The notes under the pieces were generated by a model, which was given only the letters and a program-made list of their open reading frames with translations, searched no databases and had not been told where the DNA came from. Shown piece by piece: positions 11,446 through 60,927 of a stretch of DNA of 64,000 bases. Made by a program: the position numbers and the translations under genes. Origin of the DNA: Deferribacter autotrophicus (lineage in GTDB: Bacteria; Chrysiogenota; Deferribacteres; Deferribacterales; Deferribacteraceae). Numbering within the stretch: position 1 is the first letter of the stretch; the number at the start of each line of letters is the position of its first letter. The DNA lies in NCBI RefSeq assembly GCF_008362905.1, contig NZ_VFJB01000001.1, positions 248,001-312,000 on the forward strand, written 5' to 3'.

Positions 11446-11868
11446 ATGAGAAATTACAAAGTAAAAAATATATTCAGAACCAAGTTAAAAAAAGGTGATG
11501 ATTTGTATTATTCTATAATGAATATTATTGATAAAAATTCAATAGAAACAGGTCTTATCATAGGTATTGGCGCTGTAAAAAAAGCTAACATTGCATACTT
11601 TAATCAGAAAAAAAAGGAATACGAAAATTTTCACTTCGATGAAGCTATGGAAATTGTCAGTTTAAAAGGTAATATTTCATTAAAAGAGAATAAACCTTTT
11701 GCTCACATTCACGTATCATTAGCAAGGAGCGATTATTCTGTTGTGGGAGGACATTTATTGCCAAATACCATTGTATATGCATGTGAAATAGACATTATTG
11801 AATACGAAGGTAAAACTATAAACAGAGTTTATGATGAAGAAACCAATCTTTACTTATGGGATTTATAG
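11446..11868 (+). CDS. PPC (DUF296) domain protein, putative DNA-binding
   Basis: 140 aa, a single PPC/DUF296 domain, the minimal bacterial size. The metal-ligand motif AHIHVSLAR...VVGGHLL and GLIIGIGAVKKANIAYF are typical. Family members form trimers and some bind AT-rich DNA; the role in bacteria is mostly unknown. It stands alone, divergent from hisS, and its 3' end overlaps the convergent small gene by 6 bp. Confidence 0.85.
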   Translation: MRNYKVKNIFRTKLKKGDDLYYSIMNIIDKNSIETGLIIGIGAVKKANIAYFNQKKKEYENFHFDEAMEIVSLKGNISLKENKPFAHIHVSLARSDYSVVGGHLLPNTIVYACEIDIIEYEGKTINRVYDEETNLYLWDL

Positions 11869-12081: not shown

Positions 12082-12153
12082 CTTCTACTCACATGTATGT
12101 ATTTTTACTTAATATATGCCTTTTGTCCCAAAAAGAAAGAAAAAACTTAGACA

Positions 12154-12226
12154 CGGGCGGTGGGAGACTCGAACTCCCACACCGGGTTCCGGAGACCCGT
12201 GCTCTATCCTGTTGAGCTAACCGCCC
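12154..12226 (-). tRNA. tRNA-Arg (anticodon CCG)
   Basis: The minus strand folds as a cloverleaf: acceptor GGGCGGT/ACCGCCC, D-stem GCTC/GAGC, anticodon stem CGGGT/ACCCG with loop CTCCGGA (anticodon CCG), T-stem GGGAG/CTCCC with loop TTCGAGT, discriminator G. No CCA is encoded. A promoter-like TTGACT-17-TAGAAA lies about 25-55 bp upstream. Its 5' half is duplicated near 20.0 kb. Confidence 0.95.
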
Positions 12227-12361
12227 AAAAATAAGAATTTATTGGATTTTCAAGCATTTCTACTATTTTTCATCTGTCTAGTCAACTGTAAAAATCTGTC
12301 AAAAACTGTCAATTGAAATCAATTTTTGTTAGCAGTTTGTTAGATATTCTTTAAAAACTAC

Positions 12362-12505
12362 TCACTGACTGACCACCACACCTTTCCTTCTCTCCATAGT
12401 AAAAAGCTCTAACTTCTGAAATATGTCTCTCTTTTTTCCATCACAACAAAAATACTCGCTATCAGAAATATATTCAAAATTATCAATTTTGTTCACCCTA
12501 TCCAT
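12362..12505 (-). CDS. Hypothetical 47-aa protein at the end of the S24/SRAP operon
   Basis: An ATG (12503-12505) preceded by AGGATG opens a 47-codon frame (MDRVNKIDNFEYIS..., SEYFCCDGKKRDIF) ending at TGA 12362-12364. It starts 20 bp after the SRAP gene stop on the same strand. It is acidic at the N-terminus, basic at the C-terminus and has a CC pair. No family recognised. Support comes from spacing and ribosome-binding site only. Confidence 0.45.
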   Translation of the reverse strand: MDRVNKIDNFEYISDSEYFCCDGKKRDIFQKLELFTMERRKGVVVSQ

Positions 12506-12525
12506 CTTACATCCTAAACATAATA

Positions 12526-12981
12526 TTATAACTCTTTCAAAAAAGCAGTTTTACTAGTTATTAGTACCCATCTATCGTGGATAAATTTGTATTTTTCGGG
12601 AGCTGGTTTAGTTATTATATAACAAACTTTAATATTATTCTGTTTTACTAAAAGAGCTAAAATAAACTCGTTATCTTTCAATTCAAACCAATGAGATTTT
12701 TTTTGACTATCTTTTTCCATAAATTTAATTGCAGGGATATAAACTTTTTGTGGGTTAAATTTATTCCAATAGCCTTTCTTAATACTCTCAATTTTAGCCC
12801 AACCAGTGATTGGCAAATCAACTTTTAATTCTTCTTTTTCTTTTTCGTTTCTTAGCCCCCATAAAGCGATATCTTTCTCACCTGTTTCATTGATAAAGTG
12901 TATTTTTGCATAAGGACGAGGGAAAAATACATTGAATTCTGTCTTATTTAAACTTTCACGAAAAAGAAGGCCTGCACACAT
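12526..12981 (-). CDS. Divergent SRAP-domain protein (HMCES/YedK-like)
   Basis: 151 aa. It begins Met-Cys-Ala-Gly; SRAP proteins use Cys2, exposed after Met removal, to crosslink abasic sites in single-stranded DNA. Further matches to the family pattern are WGL at ~41, GWAKIESI (cf. N-A-R-x-E-T/S), VYIPAIKFMEKD (cf. CLIPADGFYEW with the catalytic Glu) and the C-terminal ITKPAPEKYKFIHDRWVLI (cf. the catalytic-His motif IHDRMPVIL). It is shorter than YedK (~220 aa) and diverged. It follows the S24 repressor by 25 bp, fitting a damage-induced operon. The SRAP assignment is my motif reading, not a search. Confidence 0.72.
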   Translation of the reverse strand: MCAGLLFRESLNKTEFNVFFPRPYAKIHFINETGEKDIALWGLRNEKEKEELKVDLPITGWAKIESIKKGYWNKFNPQKVYIPAIKFMEKDSQKKSHWFELKDNEFILALLVKQNNIKVCYIITKPAPEKYKFIHDRWVLITSKTAFLKEL

Positions 12982-13006
12982 TTATAATATTTCATCATTG
13001 TTGAGT

Positions 13007-13753
13007 TTAAAATTCTCTCCACATCCAGACAACCCTGCCTACAACTTTAAAGCCAGGAGTTTCTCTTAAATTTATAGTTACAGGTTCATAATTCTTATTA
13101 TCAGAAACTAAGACTACAGTATTTCTATCAATAACTTTTATATGCTTTAGTGTTAGTCCATATTCTCCATTTCCATCTGGCATTCTAACCAGGTACACAT
13201 TTGAATATTTCAGAGAAAACAAATCAGGTTGAGAGGAATACGGTAGTATTGCCACTAAATCATTCTCTTGTAACATTGGTTCCATACTATCCCCTTTCAC
13301 CCGAAAAGCAAAACACTTTTCACTGATATTTTTTGGTATTTTATCAGTACTTATGCAAACCCAGCCATCAATATCGTCGTTTGATATTTCAATAACATAC
13401 GGTGTAGCTGCGGCTTTTGATCTCATTAAAGGTATTTTTAAGTATCCAGACAAATCCAATTCCTTTAAACTTTCAAGATCACCATACAAAATTCTTATAT
13501 CCGGAATATTATCAAAATCGTTCAAAGCTTTATTTTGCATATCAGCCTCTCCGAAGAAATAACCTAACGGTAAGTTTAACGCTTTTGCAAGTTTTTGAAG
13601 GGTGTCAAGATTATTTAGATTTCTTTGACCATTTAAAATTCGGTACAAAGTAACTTCTGAAATACCAGCTAATTCAGCTATTTTTTTGGCTGGCTTACTA
13701 CTGTTTTTAATTGCAACCCTGAGTTTATTTACAATTTCTTTATTAGTGAGCAT
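13007..13753 (-). CDS. XRE-S24 (CI/LexA-like) repressor
   Basis: 248 aa. Residues 5-65 are a helix-turn-helix (AELAGISEVTLYRILNGQRNL); residues ~115-240 are an S24 peptidase domain with nucleophile Ser156 (KGDSMEP) and a general-base Lys near 203 (LTLKHIK). AAATPY (~115) is a possible self-cleavage region. Such repressors are inactivated by RecA-stimulated autoproteolysis. It heads an operon with the SRAP gene and a 47-aa ORF. A palindrome between its -35 and -10 suggests autoregulation. The 5' UTR appears very short or absent. Confidence 0.9.
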   Translation of the reverse strand: MLTNKEIVNKLRVAIKNSSKPAKKIAELAGISEVTLYRILNGQRNLNNLDTLQKLAKALNLPLGYFFGEADMQNKALNDFDNIPDIRILYGDLESLKELDLSGYLKIPLMRSKAAATPYVIEISNDDIDGWVCISTDKIPKNISEKCFAFRVKGDSMEPMLQENDLVAILPYSSQPDLFSLKYSNVYLVRMPDGNGEYGLTLKHIKVIDRNTVVLVSDNKNYEPVTINLRETPGFKVVGRVVWMWREF

Positions 13754-13758
13754 ACCAG

Positions 13759-13786
13759 ACTATAACACATTGGTTATATTTATCAA
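13759..13786 (-). promoter_or_regulatory. Promoter and operator of the S24 repressor operon
   Basis: TTGATA (13781-13786) and TATAGT (13759-13764) are spaced by 16 bp. Between and across them lies TATAAC-N6-GTTATA (13761-13778), a perfect 6-bp inverted repeat. The position is that of an autorepressor site. The predicted transcript start is close to the ATG, so the mRNA may be nearly leaderless. Confidence 0.65.
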
Positions 13787-13976
13787 TATTATTTCCTTTA
13801 CCATCATTCATACGATAAACTTTTTCTTTCCCACCTTTTTTATTTTTACCTCAAGAAGATCTATCATAAATTGCGAACTTAATTTTATACTATCTAAGAC
13901 GATTAAAAGAATAAAATGGATTAATAATCTTTGAGAAAAACTAGTTGATCCAGGTGACAATTTCACACTATGGGAT

Positions 13977-29384: not shown

Positions 29385-29436
29385 CCTACGTTTTTTTGTT
29401 GTATAAGAAAATTATATTATGTAATGAATTAAGAAT

Positions 29437-29561
29437 GGGACAGAGGACTACAGTGGGAATAAGCTTAAAAGCTTCATATTTAGTCTGTCCCCCGTCCCGA
29501 AAGTCCCTATTGGTTGATTTGGCTATCAAGCCACTGTCAAACGGGAGTTTGGATTCGGGAC
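29437..29561 (+). ncRNA. Candidate IS110 bridge RNA, copy 1
   Basis: Two stem-loops lie in the non-coding leader. Stem 1: GGGACAG (29437-29443) with CTGTCCC (29485-29491), plus ACTA/TAGT, enclosing an internal loop and an apical hairpin AAGCTT-AA-AAGCTT. Stem 2: GTCCCGAA (29494-29501) with TTCGGGAC (29554-29561), enclosing a second loop and apical GGCT/AGCC. Loop 1 carries CAGTGGGAAT (29451-29460), matching the target CAGTGAGAAC except for two wobble-compatible positions, and TATTTAG (29477-29483), one base from the complement of CTAATTA. Loop 2 carries GGTTGATT (29512-29519), matching IS end AGTTGACT apart from two wobbles, and GGGAG (29543-29547) facing CTCCT at the other IS end. The fold and pairings were done by hand. 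Confidence 0.72.
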
Positions 29562-29586
29562 TAAAATATTTTAAGTGAGGTTTGAC

Positions 29587-30774
29587 ATGAAAAATGACAA
29601 ATTTGCTTTCTTTATAGGTGTTGATGTTTCCAAAGATAAGTTTAATTGCGCTATTATTAACAATAAGCTTGAACTTCTCAAAGAAGCTGAATTTCAAATG
29701 GACATTGATGGTTTTAACAGCTTCTATGACTTGATTAAAAAGTATGACTCCTCTATCATTGCTCTTGAATCTACTGGCAGCTATCACATTAACCTCTTAG
29801 CATCCCTTGTATCCAAAAAGAAAGATGTCTGTCTTATTAATCCAGCTCTCATCAAAAAATTTGCCCAATCCGTTACTCTCAGAAAAACCAAAACCGATAA
29901 AATTGATGCTGTTATCATTGCTAAATTTATAGCTAAGAATATTGAACATTTCAATTATTTTGCTCTTCCTGAGTCCAATGATATTATCGCACTTGCCAGG
30001 ATGAGAGAACATATTACTCAGCAGATTGCAAGAGTTAAGACTCAGCTTAAACAGCATCTTACTGTAGTATTTCCTGAACTTGTGGCAAATGCCAATGTAT
30101 TTACTCAATCCATTTTGCATATCCTTAAACATATGCCTACAGCTGAAATCATCAGGAATGCTAATGAAGATGATATTCAAAAGATTCTTGATGAATTGAA
30201 GTTTGCACATAAGTCAAATATTACCCCTCAGAAGCTCATATCCCTTGCTAAATCCTCCATTGGTATTTCCTCTGATATCTGGGCTACTGTCATCAAAGAA
30301 GATGTTGAAATGCTCATATTTCTTAATAGCCGACTTGATAATATTACGAAGGAATTTATTGATAAAATAAAATCTTCCAAAAAAGATGATATGGAGATTA
30401 TTACTTCTATCAAAGGAATTAATGATATTACCGCTGCCCATTTTCTTGCAGAAATTAAAGATATAAACAGATTTGCCAACAAAGGTAAACTTGCTGCCTA
30501 TGCCGGGATAGATCCTGCTATTAAACAATCCGGAAGTATGTATAGTAACGGCAGAATAAGTAAAAAAGGATCCCGGTCCCTTAGGCGTATTCTTTATCTT
30601 ATGGCAAGTGGTGTTATGAAGTTTAATGAGTATTTTAGAGCGTATTATTTGAAAAAGAAGGAGGAAGGTATGCCTCATAGAAAAGCTATGATTGCATTGT
30701 GTAACAAACTTGTGCGTGTACTTTATGCCATGCTTACAAAAAAAGAGGTTTTTCATATGCCTAAATTATCTTAA
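29587..30774 (+). CDS. IS110-family transposase (DEDD recombinase), copy 1
   Basis: 395 aa. N-terminal RuvC-like DEDD domain: GVDVSKDKFNCAI (first Asp), ALESTGSYH (Glu) and KTDKIDAVIIAKFI (Asp pair). C-terminal Transposase_20 domain: ITSIKGINDITAAHFLAEI, LAAYAGIDPAIKQSG and KKGSRSLRRILYLMA, with the conserved Ser. The start ATG 29587-29589 follows GTGAGG. IS110 recombinases act with a bridge RNA that chooses target and donor. The protein is identical to that of copy 2. Confidence 0.95.
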   Translation: MKNDKFAFFIGVDVSKDKFNCAIINNKLELLKEAEFQMDIDGFNSFYDLIKKYDSSIIALESTGSYHINLLASLVSKKKDVCLINPALIKKFAQSVTLRKTKTDKIDAVIIAKFIAKNIEHFNYFALPESNDIIALARMREHITQQIARVKTQLKQHLTVVFPELVANANVFTQSILHILKHMPTAEIIRNANEDDIQKILDELKFAHKSNITPQKLISLAKSSIGISSDIWATVIKEDVEMLIFLNSRLDNITKEFIDKIKSSKKDDMEIITSIKGINDITAAHFLAEIKDINRFANKGKLAAYAGIDPAIKQSGSMYSNGRISKKGSRSLRRILYLMASGVMKFNEYFRAYYLKKKEEGMPHRKAMIALCNKLVRVLYAMLTKKEVFHMPKLS

Positions 30775-30799
30775 TAATTTTTAATATTTATAGTTGACT

Positions 30800-31017
30800 A
30801 ATTACTAAATAAAATCTTTATAACTTTTAAATTAGTTGCTAGCAAATATTTAAAGAAGAATGACACACATATGAAAACATGAAATATGGCACAATATTAT
30901 AATTTTCATCCCCCAGCTTTTTTATAAAAAATATTCAAAGACTGGAGGAATTTTTATGGTAAAACTGAAATAAATCAATTATTAATAATTAGTTGCCACT
31001 TTTTCAGTGGCAACTAA
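30800..31017. other. Intergenic repeat-derived sequence (element B, copy 1)
   Basis: No gene. The part near 30895-30985 (AATATTATAATTTTCATCC..., CCCCAGC...GACTGGAGG) resembles 59090-59173 imperfectly, and both end in the same hairpin repeat. A degenerate half hairpin (AAATTAGTTGCTAGCAA) is near 30830. Confidence 0.5.
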
Positions 31018-59173: not shown

Positions 59174-59512
59174 TAATTAGTTGCCACTTTTTCAGTGGCA
59201 ACTAATTAATAGTTAATATGTTTTTCTTTATTATACTTATTGTTATCCATCAATTACTAAAATCTATTGTTTTATATAATTTATTGTAAACTCTAAATCT
59301 TTTTGGGGGTTTTAAAGGGGGTTACCCCCTAAATTAGTTTTCGTTAGAAAACTAATTTATGTAAAAAATAATAAATAAATTCTTATCCATTTAATTTTCT
59401 TTATAGGGGGTTATAAAGGGGGCTTGCCCCCTTTAAGTATCATTTTTGCAAATATCACAAATGAATAATTTTTAATTATCAATAAAATACACTTTTTCAG
59501 CAGGAACTAATT
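59174..59512. repeat. Repeat element A, copy 2 (with ~96-bp extra segment, cut by IS copy 2)
   Basis: It begins with the hairpin repeat (59174-59208; same arms as at 20030 but loop TTTTC instead of GAAAA) and ends with CACTTTTTCAGCAGGAACTA at the IS boundary. The interior matches copy 1 closely except for an extra segment with a perfect 12-bp stem AAATTAGTTTTC/GAAAACTAATTT (59331-59358). No gene inside. Confidence 0.75.
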
Positions 59513-59537
59513 AGTCAACTATAAATATTAAAAATTA

Positions 59538-60725
59538 TTAAGATAATTTAGGCATATGAAAAACCTCTTTTTTTGTAAGCATGGCATAAAGTACACGCAC
59601 AAGTTTGTTACACAATGCAATCATAGCTTTTCTATGAGGCATACCTTCCTCCTTCTTTTTCAAATAATACGCTCTAAAATACTCATTAAACTTCATAACA
59701 CCACTTGCCATAAGATAAAGAATACGCCTAAGGGACCGGGATCCTTTTTTACTTATTCTGCCGTTACTATACATACTTCCGGATTGTTTAATAGCAGGAT
59801 CTATCCCGGCATAGGCAGCAAGTTTACCTTTGTTGGCAAATCTGTTTATATCTTTAATTTCTGCAAGAAAATGGGCAGCGGTAATATCATTAATTCCTTT
59901 GATAGAAGTAATAATCTCCATATCATCTTTTTTGGAAGATTTTATTTTATCAATAAATTCCTTCGTAATATTATCAAGTCGGCTATTAAGAAATATGAGC
60001 ATTTCAACATCTTCTTTGATGACAGTAGCCCAGATATCAGAGGAAATACCAATGGAGGATTTAGCAAGGGATATGAGCTTCTGAGGGGTAATATTTGACT
60101 TATGTGCAAACTTCAATTCATCAAGAATCTTTTGAATATCATCTTCATTAGCATTCCTGATGATTTCAGCTGTAGGCATATGTTTAAGGATATGCAAAAT
60201 GGATTGAGTAAATACATTGGCATTTGCCACAAGTTCAGGAAATACTACAGTAAGATGCTGTTTAAGCTGAGTCTTAACTCTTGCAATCTGCTGAGTAATA
60301 TGTTCTCTCATCCTGGCAAGTGCGATAATATCATTGGACTCAGGAAGAGCAAAATAATTGAAATGTTCAATATTCTTAGCTATAAATTTAGCAATGATAA
60401 CAGCATCAATTTTATCGGTTTTGGTTTTTCTGAGAGTAACGGATTGGGCAAATTTTTTGATGAGAGCTGGATTAATAAGACAGACATCTTTCTTTTTGGA
60501 TACAAGGGATGCTAAGAGGTTAATGTGATAGCTGCCAGTAGATTCAAGAGCAATGATAGAGGAGTCATACTTTTTAATCAAGTCATAGAAGCTGTTAAAA
60601 CCATCAATGTCCATTTGAAATTCAGCTTCTTTGAGAAGTTCAAGCTTATTGTTAATAATAGCGCAATTAAACTTATCTTTGGAAACATCAACACCTATAA
60701 AGAAAGCAAATTTGTCATTTTTCAT
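59538..60725 (-). CDS. IS110-family transposase (DEDD recombinase), copy 2
   Basis: 395 aa, identical in sequence to copy 1, intact reading frame. Same DEDD and Transposase_20 domains. The identity shows recent duplication or strong homogenisation. Confidence 0.95.
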   Translation of the reverse strand: MKNDKFAFFIGVDVSKDKFNCAIINNKLELLKEAEFQMDIDGFNSFYDLIKKYDSSIIALESTGSYHINLLASLVSKKKDVCLINPALIKKFAQSVTLRKTKTDKIDAVIIAKFIAKNIEHFNYFALPESNDIIALARMREHITQQIARVKTQLKQHLTVVFPELVANANVFTQSILHILKHMPTAEIIRNANEDDIQKILDELKFAHKSNITPQKLISLAKSSIGISSDIWATVIKEDVEMLIFLNSRLDNITKEFIDKIKSSKKDDMEIITSIKGINDITAAHFLAEIKDINRFANKGKLAAYAGIDPAIKQSGSMYSNGRISKKGSRSLRRILYLMASGVMKFNEYFRAYYLKKKEEGMPHRKAMIALCNKLVRVLYAMLTKKEVFHMPKLS

Positions 60726-60750
60726 GTCAAACCTCACTTAAAATATTTTA

Positions 60751-60875
60751 GTCCCGAATCCAAACTCCCGTTTGACAGTGGCTTGATAGCCAAATCAACC
60801 AATAGGGACTTTCGGGACGGGGGACAGACTAAATATGAAGCTTTTAAGCTTATTCCCACTGTAGTCCTCTGTCCC
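60751..60875 (-). ncRNA. Candidate IS110 bridge RNA, copy 2
   Basis: The same two stem-loops as in copy 1. Here the target CAGTGGCAAC differs from the guide-like CAGTGGGAAT by one true mismatch and one wobble, so this insertion site is a slightly poorer match than that of copy 1. Confidence 0.68.
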
Positions 60876-60927
60876 ATTCTTAATTCATTACATAATATAA
60901 TTTTCTTATACAACAAAAAAACGTAGG

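Follow-up and report, generated by a model that had tools for sequence, protein, structure and literature searches.

The stretch of DNA analysed, referred to here as the window, comprises 64,000 nucleotides of the 2.54-Mb genome of Deferribacter autotrophicus. Three ORFs follow one another in it on the minus strand, an S24 repressor gene, an SRAP-like gene and a 47-codon ORF (ORF47), with intergenic gaps of 25 and 20 nt; they sit at the positions given in a preliminary description, which had taken them for a possible stand-alone DNA-damage operon. The features of the locus, with the evidence for each in brackets, were the following:

13759..13786, minus strand: sigma-70-like promoter TTGATA-16-TATAGT (10/12 matches, the -10 box preceded by TG)
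13763..13776, minus strand: operator palindrome TAACCAATGTGTTA (consensus TAACCNATNGGTTA), likely the operator of the repressor itself (position conserved in three genomes)
13007..13753, minus strand: S24/HTH repressor, CI-like, 248 aa (Pfam, PHROG phrog_4, LexA alignment)
12526..12981, minus strand: compact SRAP protein, 151 aa (Pfam, AF2, Foldseek, VIA, alignments)
12362..12505, minus strand: ORF47, last ORF of the putative operon, doubtful as a gene (AGGA before the ATG)
12153..12227, minus strand: tRNA-Arg(CCG), downstream boundary, outside the system (ARAGORN)

The ATG of ORF47 is preceded by AGGA at a distance of six bases; the SRAP gene displayed no clear ribosome-binding site, and a search for terminators at the operon found none. 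No family match beyond chance level was obtained for ORF47 with Pfam, NCBIfam, PHROGs or a further profile search, nor a convincing homologue in 99 genomes, where matches remained at chance level. ORFs of this size were frequent by chance in the window. The SRAP gene resembles its decayed copies elsewhere in the genome, and this similarity stopped before ORF47. With no detectable homologue and a size so common by chance, its proposal as a third gene found no support, and it may be a spurious ORF. The same-genus genome (G001) retains the tRNA-Arg and the gene beyond it, without the operon; azlC is missing from that genome, so that an empty site is not cleanly definable. Integration at the tRNA-Arg was considered and left unsupported, the operon being located 5' of the tRNA without bounding repeats. 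In the same surroundings, a PCC-domain protein (PF03479, E 9e-33) is encoded at window positions 11446-11868 on the plus strand, adjoined by a 72-aa Cys-rich ORF that occupies the same place beside the tRNA-Arg in the same-genus genome.

SRAP proteins are the known cellular shield of abasic sites in single-stranded DNA. The product of the middle gene matched the Pfam SRAP family (PF02586) with E 1.1e-6 and 28.7 bits, 1.6 bits above the cut-off of 27.1; the PHROGs match was to an unnamed family only (E 0.0003), no match was obtained in NCBIfam and no true match in a sequence search of the PDB. An AlphaFold (AF2) model, calculated from an alignment of this protein with 11 relatives, reached a mean pLDDT of 92.1 and a pTM of 0.86. 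The first 17 PDB matches of the model in Foldseek were all SRAP structures (E 1.6e-4 for YedK), and VIA-align placed 15 SRAP entries of the YedK/HMCES type at Z 10.3-11.4, the next unrelated chain scoring 2.8; nothing was retrieved from a viral fold library at E <= 0.001. Profile and predicted structure of 12526-12981 thus both identify the product as an SRAP-fold protein, and the earlier suggestion of a shortened SRAP was borne out by its 151 residues. It starts with Met-Cys as had been described, although the IHDRW motif taken for its end occupies residues 134-138 of 151, near the C-terminus but not terminal.

The definition of the SRAP superfamily gives a length of 220-260 residues and names Cys, Asn, Glu and His as conserved (Aravind 2013, PMC3765255, in the available text). 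The window protein, well below that length, retains Cys2, Glu89 (equivalent to E105), His135 (H160) and Arg137 (R162), and carries Trp61 for Asn75 and Lys90 for Trp106. As the conserved Asn of PF02586 is replaced, we assign it to a variant clade within the SRAP superfamily and do not count it as a canonical member. It shares with YedK/HMCES the predicted fold (VIA Z 10.8-11.3) and the equivalents of Cys2, Glu105, His160 and Arg162; in contrast, it is about 150 aa long instead of 220-260 aa, the C-terminal third being missing, it differs by the two substitutions, and it falls in a clade separate from 30 canonical proteins. In YedK, Cys2 acts as the nucleophile, with Glu105 and His160 as acid-base catalysts, and the N75A change slowed internal AP-site cross-linking only modestly but impaired the reaction with 3'-PUA ends (PMC9436759, available portion). 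Given the modest effect of N75A and the importance of E105 and H160, Trp at this position need not abolish activity; by analogy with YedK, it might alter which DNA ends are captured.

The relatives of the window protein were compared in an alignment of 18 compact seeds with 30 canonical SRAPs (YedK plus 29; L136 was dropped as it gave no canonical sequence). Cys2 was present in all 48 sequences, and the equivalents of Cys2, Glu105, His160 and Arg162 in 18/18 compact seeds. Asn75 and Trp106 were each found in 30/30 canonical proteins, their places being taken in the compact seeds by Trp and Lys, respectively; MAFFT gapped at the Asn75 column, so that the assignment of Trp comes from the ungapped block PLINARVET/ITGWAKIES and is made at sequence level, not from coordinates. 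Thirty further compact sequences from another class (that of G184) were aligned to the profile of the 18 seeds, and Trp then appeared in 48/48 compact sequences (18 seeds plus 30 of the other class) vs. Asn in 30/30 canonical ones. The other-class branch drifts at the catalytic positions (Glu at the Glu89 position in 22/30 and His at the His135 position in 9/30), which hints at a non-catalytic role there. When a FastTree tree was rooted on YedK, all 48 compact sequences, of about 140-175 aa, fell into a single clade without canonical members (support 1.0).

This clade is mostly missed by Pfam and NCBIfam and is poorly annotated: Pfam SRAP matched 7/18 seeds at E <= 0.1 and 0/10 in a further compact set (L035, one of these ten, is also a seed), NCBIfam matched 0/10 compact SRAPs, and all five plasmid records examined name the compact SRAP "hypothetical protein". 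When 240 genomes were searched with PF02586, 48 matched; the best match was weaker than 1e-32 only in the D. autotrophicus genome and in G024, both compact, and no canonical SRAP was matched in the Deferribacterales genomes of that set. A short or Trp-type SRAP subfamily was not found among the titles listed in a literature search. The Trp-type compact clade is in itself the most interesting outcome of this work: widespread, short, and lacking both the Asn and the C-terminal third, it provides a minimal natural construct for testing which residues are needed for the chemistry.

The first gene encodes a protein with a Peptidase_S24 domain (E 1.8e-12) and an HTH_3 domain (E 6.6e-8) in Pfam, which matched the transcriptional repressor family phrog_4 of PHROGs with E 3.3e-34; a PDB sequence search gave no true match. 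It is not a LexA orthologue (19.8 bits with TIGR00498 vs. a cut-off of 110.95). In an alignment with LexA and two homologues, Ser156 and Lys203 coincided with the catalytic pair of LexA, so that the combination of HTH and S24 domain with Ser/Lys dyad characteristic of LexA/CI-type self-cleaving repressors is present. The scissile bond of S24 self-cleaving repressors is Ala-Gly or Cys-Gly. Here the putative cleavage site is Ala115-Ala116, as compared to Ala-Gly in the host's own LexA; the homologues carry Ala-Ala (L017) and Gly-Ala (L076). The Ser/Lys dyad attributed to this protein was confirmed, but the scissile dipeptide is not the usual one. Cleavage at Ala-Ala is conceivable, and with this dipeptide in place of Ala-Gly self-cleavage is plausible, not secured.

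The promoter TTGATA begins at position 13786 and TATAGT ends at 13759, the palindrome occupying the spacer between the -35 and -10 boxes. A promoter scan returned 8 promoter-like sites vs. 7.7 in shuffled sequences, and is thus no evidence alone; the same layout was read in front of the repressor homologues L017 and L076. The -10 box ends 5 nt before the repressor ATG (5-6 across homologues, as read from the sequence), which would leave the mRNA almost without a leader. TAACCAATGTGTTA is an imperfect palindrome, symmetric at 10/14 positions (12/14 in the sister site of L017), and the homologues from G003 and G015 carry TAACCAATCGGTTA and TAACCAATCGGCTA 9 or 10 bases before the ATG. Across the three promoters 11/14 columns of the 14-mer are identical and hardly any other conservation is visible; a score of 10 identical columns was not attained in any of 2000 dinucleotide shuffles. 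The palindrome described in the promoter of the repressor is therefore real, though imperfect, and its place is conserved before two homologous repressor genes. This conservation between the -35 and -10 boxes in two other genomes makes it likely that the repressor represses its own gene through it. Sites with at most one mismatch to the operator numbered 6 in the whole genome vs. 14 for a reversed control pattern, and the other five all lay within genes; a wider regulon of this operator was rejected on these grounds, and the repressor most likely controls its own operon only. An operator-like site before the SRAP gene of L029 was judged a chance occurrence.

The host encodes a true LexA (G000:C10:131335-131922), adjoining a Y-family polymerase. 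Its box, CGAACAAATGTTT (order-specific form [CT]GAAC-N4-GTT), differs from the S24 palindrome, which gives the repressor-SRAP operon an operator of its own. LexA control of the operon is not claimed; the best match to this box near the S24 promoter is CGAACTTAATTTT, which has one mismatch and lies about 90 bp ahead of the -35 box, at 13874. The idea of a stand-alone, LexA-independent response is only partly supported. The separate operator stands; against the idea, a true LexA is present in the genome, near relatives of the repressor run other cargo, related SRAP genes in the order mostly stand alone, and the cleavage site is Ala-Ala in place of Ala-Gly. As a conserved damage response it remains a proposal.

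Computation established the SRAP fold, the presence of all three catalytic residues and the conservation of the operator. The explanation that we favour, with a confidence somewhat above even, is that an autoregulated CI-like S24 repressor and the compact SRAP gene downstream form a unit released by DNA damage, whose SRAP product caps abasic sites. To judge from the conserved position of the operator, the repressor would hold the transcript low by binding the palindrome between the -35 and -10 boxes of its own promoter. After DNA damage it would be inactivated, most likely by RecA-stimulated self-cleavage (Ser and Lys are present, the site being Ala-Ala); from the gene order, the loss of repressor would raise the transcript and SRAP would be made. 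Once Met1 is removed, Cys2, aided by Glu89 and His135, would link covalently to abasic sites in single-stranded DNA and so shield them at stalled forks, as fold, residues and the chemistry of YedK suggest. If the repressor-SRAP pair holds, abasic-site protection would be placed under a switch separate from LexA.

Conservation of the pair was examined in the order. Compact SRAP genes appeared in 6 Deferribacterales genomes, which account for all the matches among 99 genomes searched. Seven genes of the order are full-length (two of them in G003), and only the window gene (1/7) lies directly behind an S24 repressor. One SRAP gene of G003 (G003:C16) has a sister repressor 4.0 kb ahead of it, in the same orientation and within a run of close-set genes; the other five had no such repressor neighbour in the stretches examined. 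With adjacency in one of seven genes, a conserved unit of repressor and abasic-site protection, as first proposed, was unsupported in the order.

The nearest homologues of the repressor, in G003 (56-58% identity) and G015 (52-53% identity), head other genes. The G015 repressor leads a cassette of a PDC-S18 protein (PADLOC, E 4e-139), a lipoprotein-like protein and cpYpsA, without an SRAP gene in the stretch read around it; the lipoprotein-like protein and cpYpsA are common to the G015 and G003 cassettes. In these loci, L076 (G015:C9) and L017 (G003:C16), PDC-S18, cpYpsA, a nuclease and small unknown proteins follow the same operator. In the D. autotrophicus genome itself, the gene after the decayed SRAP copy on C7 has a homologue in the G015 cassette (36% identity). 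Since its homologues head other genes, the repressor appears to lead a modular cassette, with SRAP as one possible cargo.

A possible, although clearly less probable, alternative is then that the repressor is the switch of a mobile element or defence cassette with SRAP as one of several interchangeable cargo genes, the trigger being perhaps phage infection or element mobilisation and not DNA damage itself. The PDC-S18, cpYpsA, nuclease and lipoprotein-like genes headed by its relatives point in that direction; both cassettes lie, by eye, near restriction- or defence-like genes and are possible repressor-controlled defence cassettes, and the repressor is of a phage-like class, with matches in 24 phage records. 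On the other hand, the ORF list and Pfam revealed no genes of a mobile element next to the operon in the window, and compact SRAP was absent from the phage records and viral contigs searched. S24 phage-type repressors usually respond to RecA too, so that this alternative overlaps with the damage-released operon that we favour.

The neighbours of compact SRAP genes were tallied over 27 loci, excluding the decayed copies of the D. autotrophicus genome and a near-identical P. putida plasmid match (H2), and counting L020, the same as L016, once. A LexA or S24 repressor was found upstream on the same strand in 5/27 (the window, L017, L025, L030 and L035), the regulator being LexA in L025, L030 and L035, from unrelated bacteria. 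A Y-family polymerase lay on the same strand in 4/27 (L030, L035, L107 and L108), touching the SRAP gene or within 3 nt of it in L035, L107 and L108. With the UvrB neighbour of L106 included, 8/27 loci had at least one of LexA or S24 repressor, Y-family polymerase or UvrB. In the class of G184, 108/397 genomes matched the compact profile (a few weak matches may be canonical), and a Y-family polymerase lay upstream on the same strand in 25/30 loci, these being the best-scoring of the matches and mutually related; the five loci without polymerase include L165 and L177, where the contig ends upstream. As a rough control, any polymerase was present in the flanks of 4/30 canonical SRAP loci. The damage linkage of the compact clade is thus independently supported by its neighbours. 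The pairing with an S24 repressor is local, the partners elsewhere being LexA or Y-family polymerases.

These polymerases lend some weight to a further, rather doubtful alternative, by which compact SRAP is not a free cap but a small UmuD'-like subunit of Y-family polymerases, acting here in trans on the LexA-linked polymerase. In addition to the close polymerase neighbours in both samples, it draws on the loss of the catalytic His in most of the other-class branch and on a link published in 2026, in which SRAP-like proteins are proposed as PolY-binding subunits with AlphaFold models of the complexes (PMC12926913, available text). In other bacteria, compact SRAP may be a mutasome subunit. In the window, however, no polymerase stands beside the SRAP gene, and the catalytic residues are complete in all 18 seeds, both of which argue against this alternative. 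The remaining alternative, a decaying remnant in which SRAP and ORF47 are relics and the repressor alone is functional, is improbable: the other two SRAP copies of the genome are broken or partial, ORF47 has no homologue and no SRAP was found in the same-genus genome, but the window SRAP is intact with all catalytic residues kept, and five other genomes of the order still carry full-length copies.

The decayed copies are found at G000:C7:84849-85294 (L013), disrupted, with Cys2 changed to Arg and adjoining type III restriction-like genes, and at G000:C8:28587-28697 (L014), where a fragment is left, some 250 bp away from a tRNA-Leu. With two such copies in the genome, SRAP function may be dispensable.

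Several known systems resemble the window operon. Compact SRAPs beside Y-family polymerases are probably included among the PolY-SRAP-like modules (PMC12926913), whose available text makes no mention of a repressor-SRAP operon, of Trp for Asn or of Deferribacterales. The LexA-DinB-SRAP and UmuDC-SRAP operons (PMC3765255, as far as the text available extends) likewise link a self-cleaving repressor-type protein to SRAP, whereas the window operon has no polymerase, a CI-like S24/HTH_3 repressor with its own operator, and a compact SRAP. UmuDAb of Acinetobacter, according to the accessible text (PMC7273328), is also a peptidase repressor resembling LexA, which has a palindrome of its own and controls damage genes; it works in a genus without LexA, in contrast with D. 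autotrophicus, whose genome has one. A broader reading is offered tentatively: an unnamed Trp-type compact clade, perhaps directed to another abasic or 3'-end lesion, would in this lineage have been captured by a dedicated autocleaving repressor to give a polymerase-free operon for abasic-site protection with a single operator, parallel to LexA.

Other observations concern individual compact loci. In L106 (4741-7217, minus strand), compact SRAP lies, by eye, 5 nt upstream of uvrB, an unusual excision-repair pairing. A long inverted repeat (AGGTACCAGGCTGT / ACAGCCTGGTACCT) is located directly 5' of the compact SRAP ATG at L016:8360-8421. A Vampirovibrio MAG (L032:6001-7196) carries a disrupted compact SRAP in the vicinity of prophage-like genes, an HTH protein being encoded downstream (by eye), a context which hints that phages can carry compact SRAP.

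Elsewhere in the window, two copies of an element identical over about 1.4 kb lie in opposite orientation, at approximately 29390-30800 on the plus strand and 59500-60910 on the minus strand. The element, which we take to be IS110-like, encodes a 399-aa transposase and has, upstream, a conserved non-coding stretch of about 200 bp; IS110-like elements encode a guide RNA in their upstream non-coding sequence.
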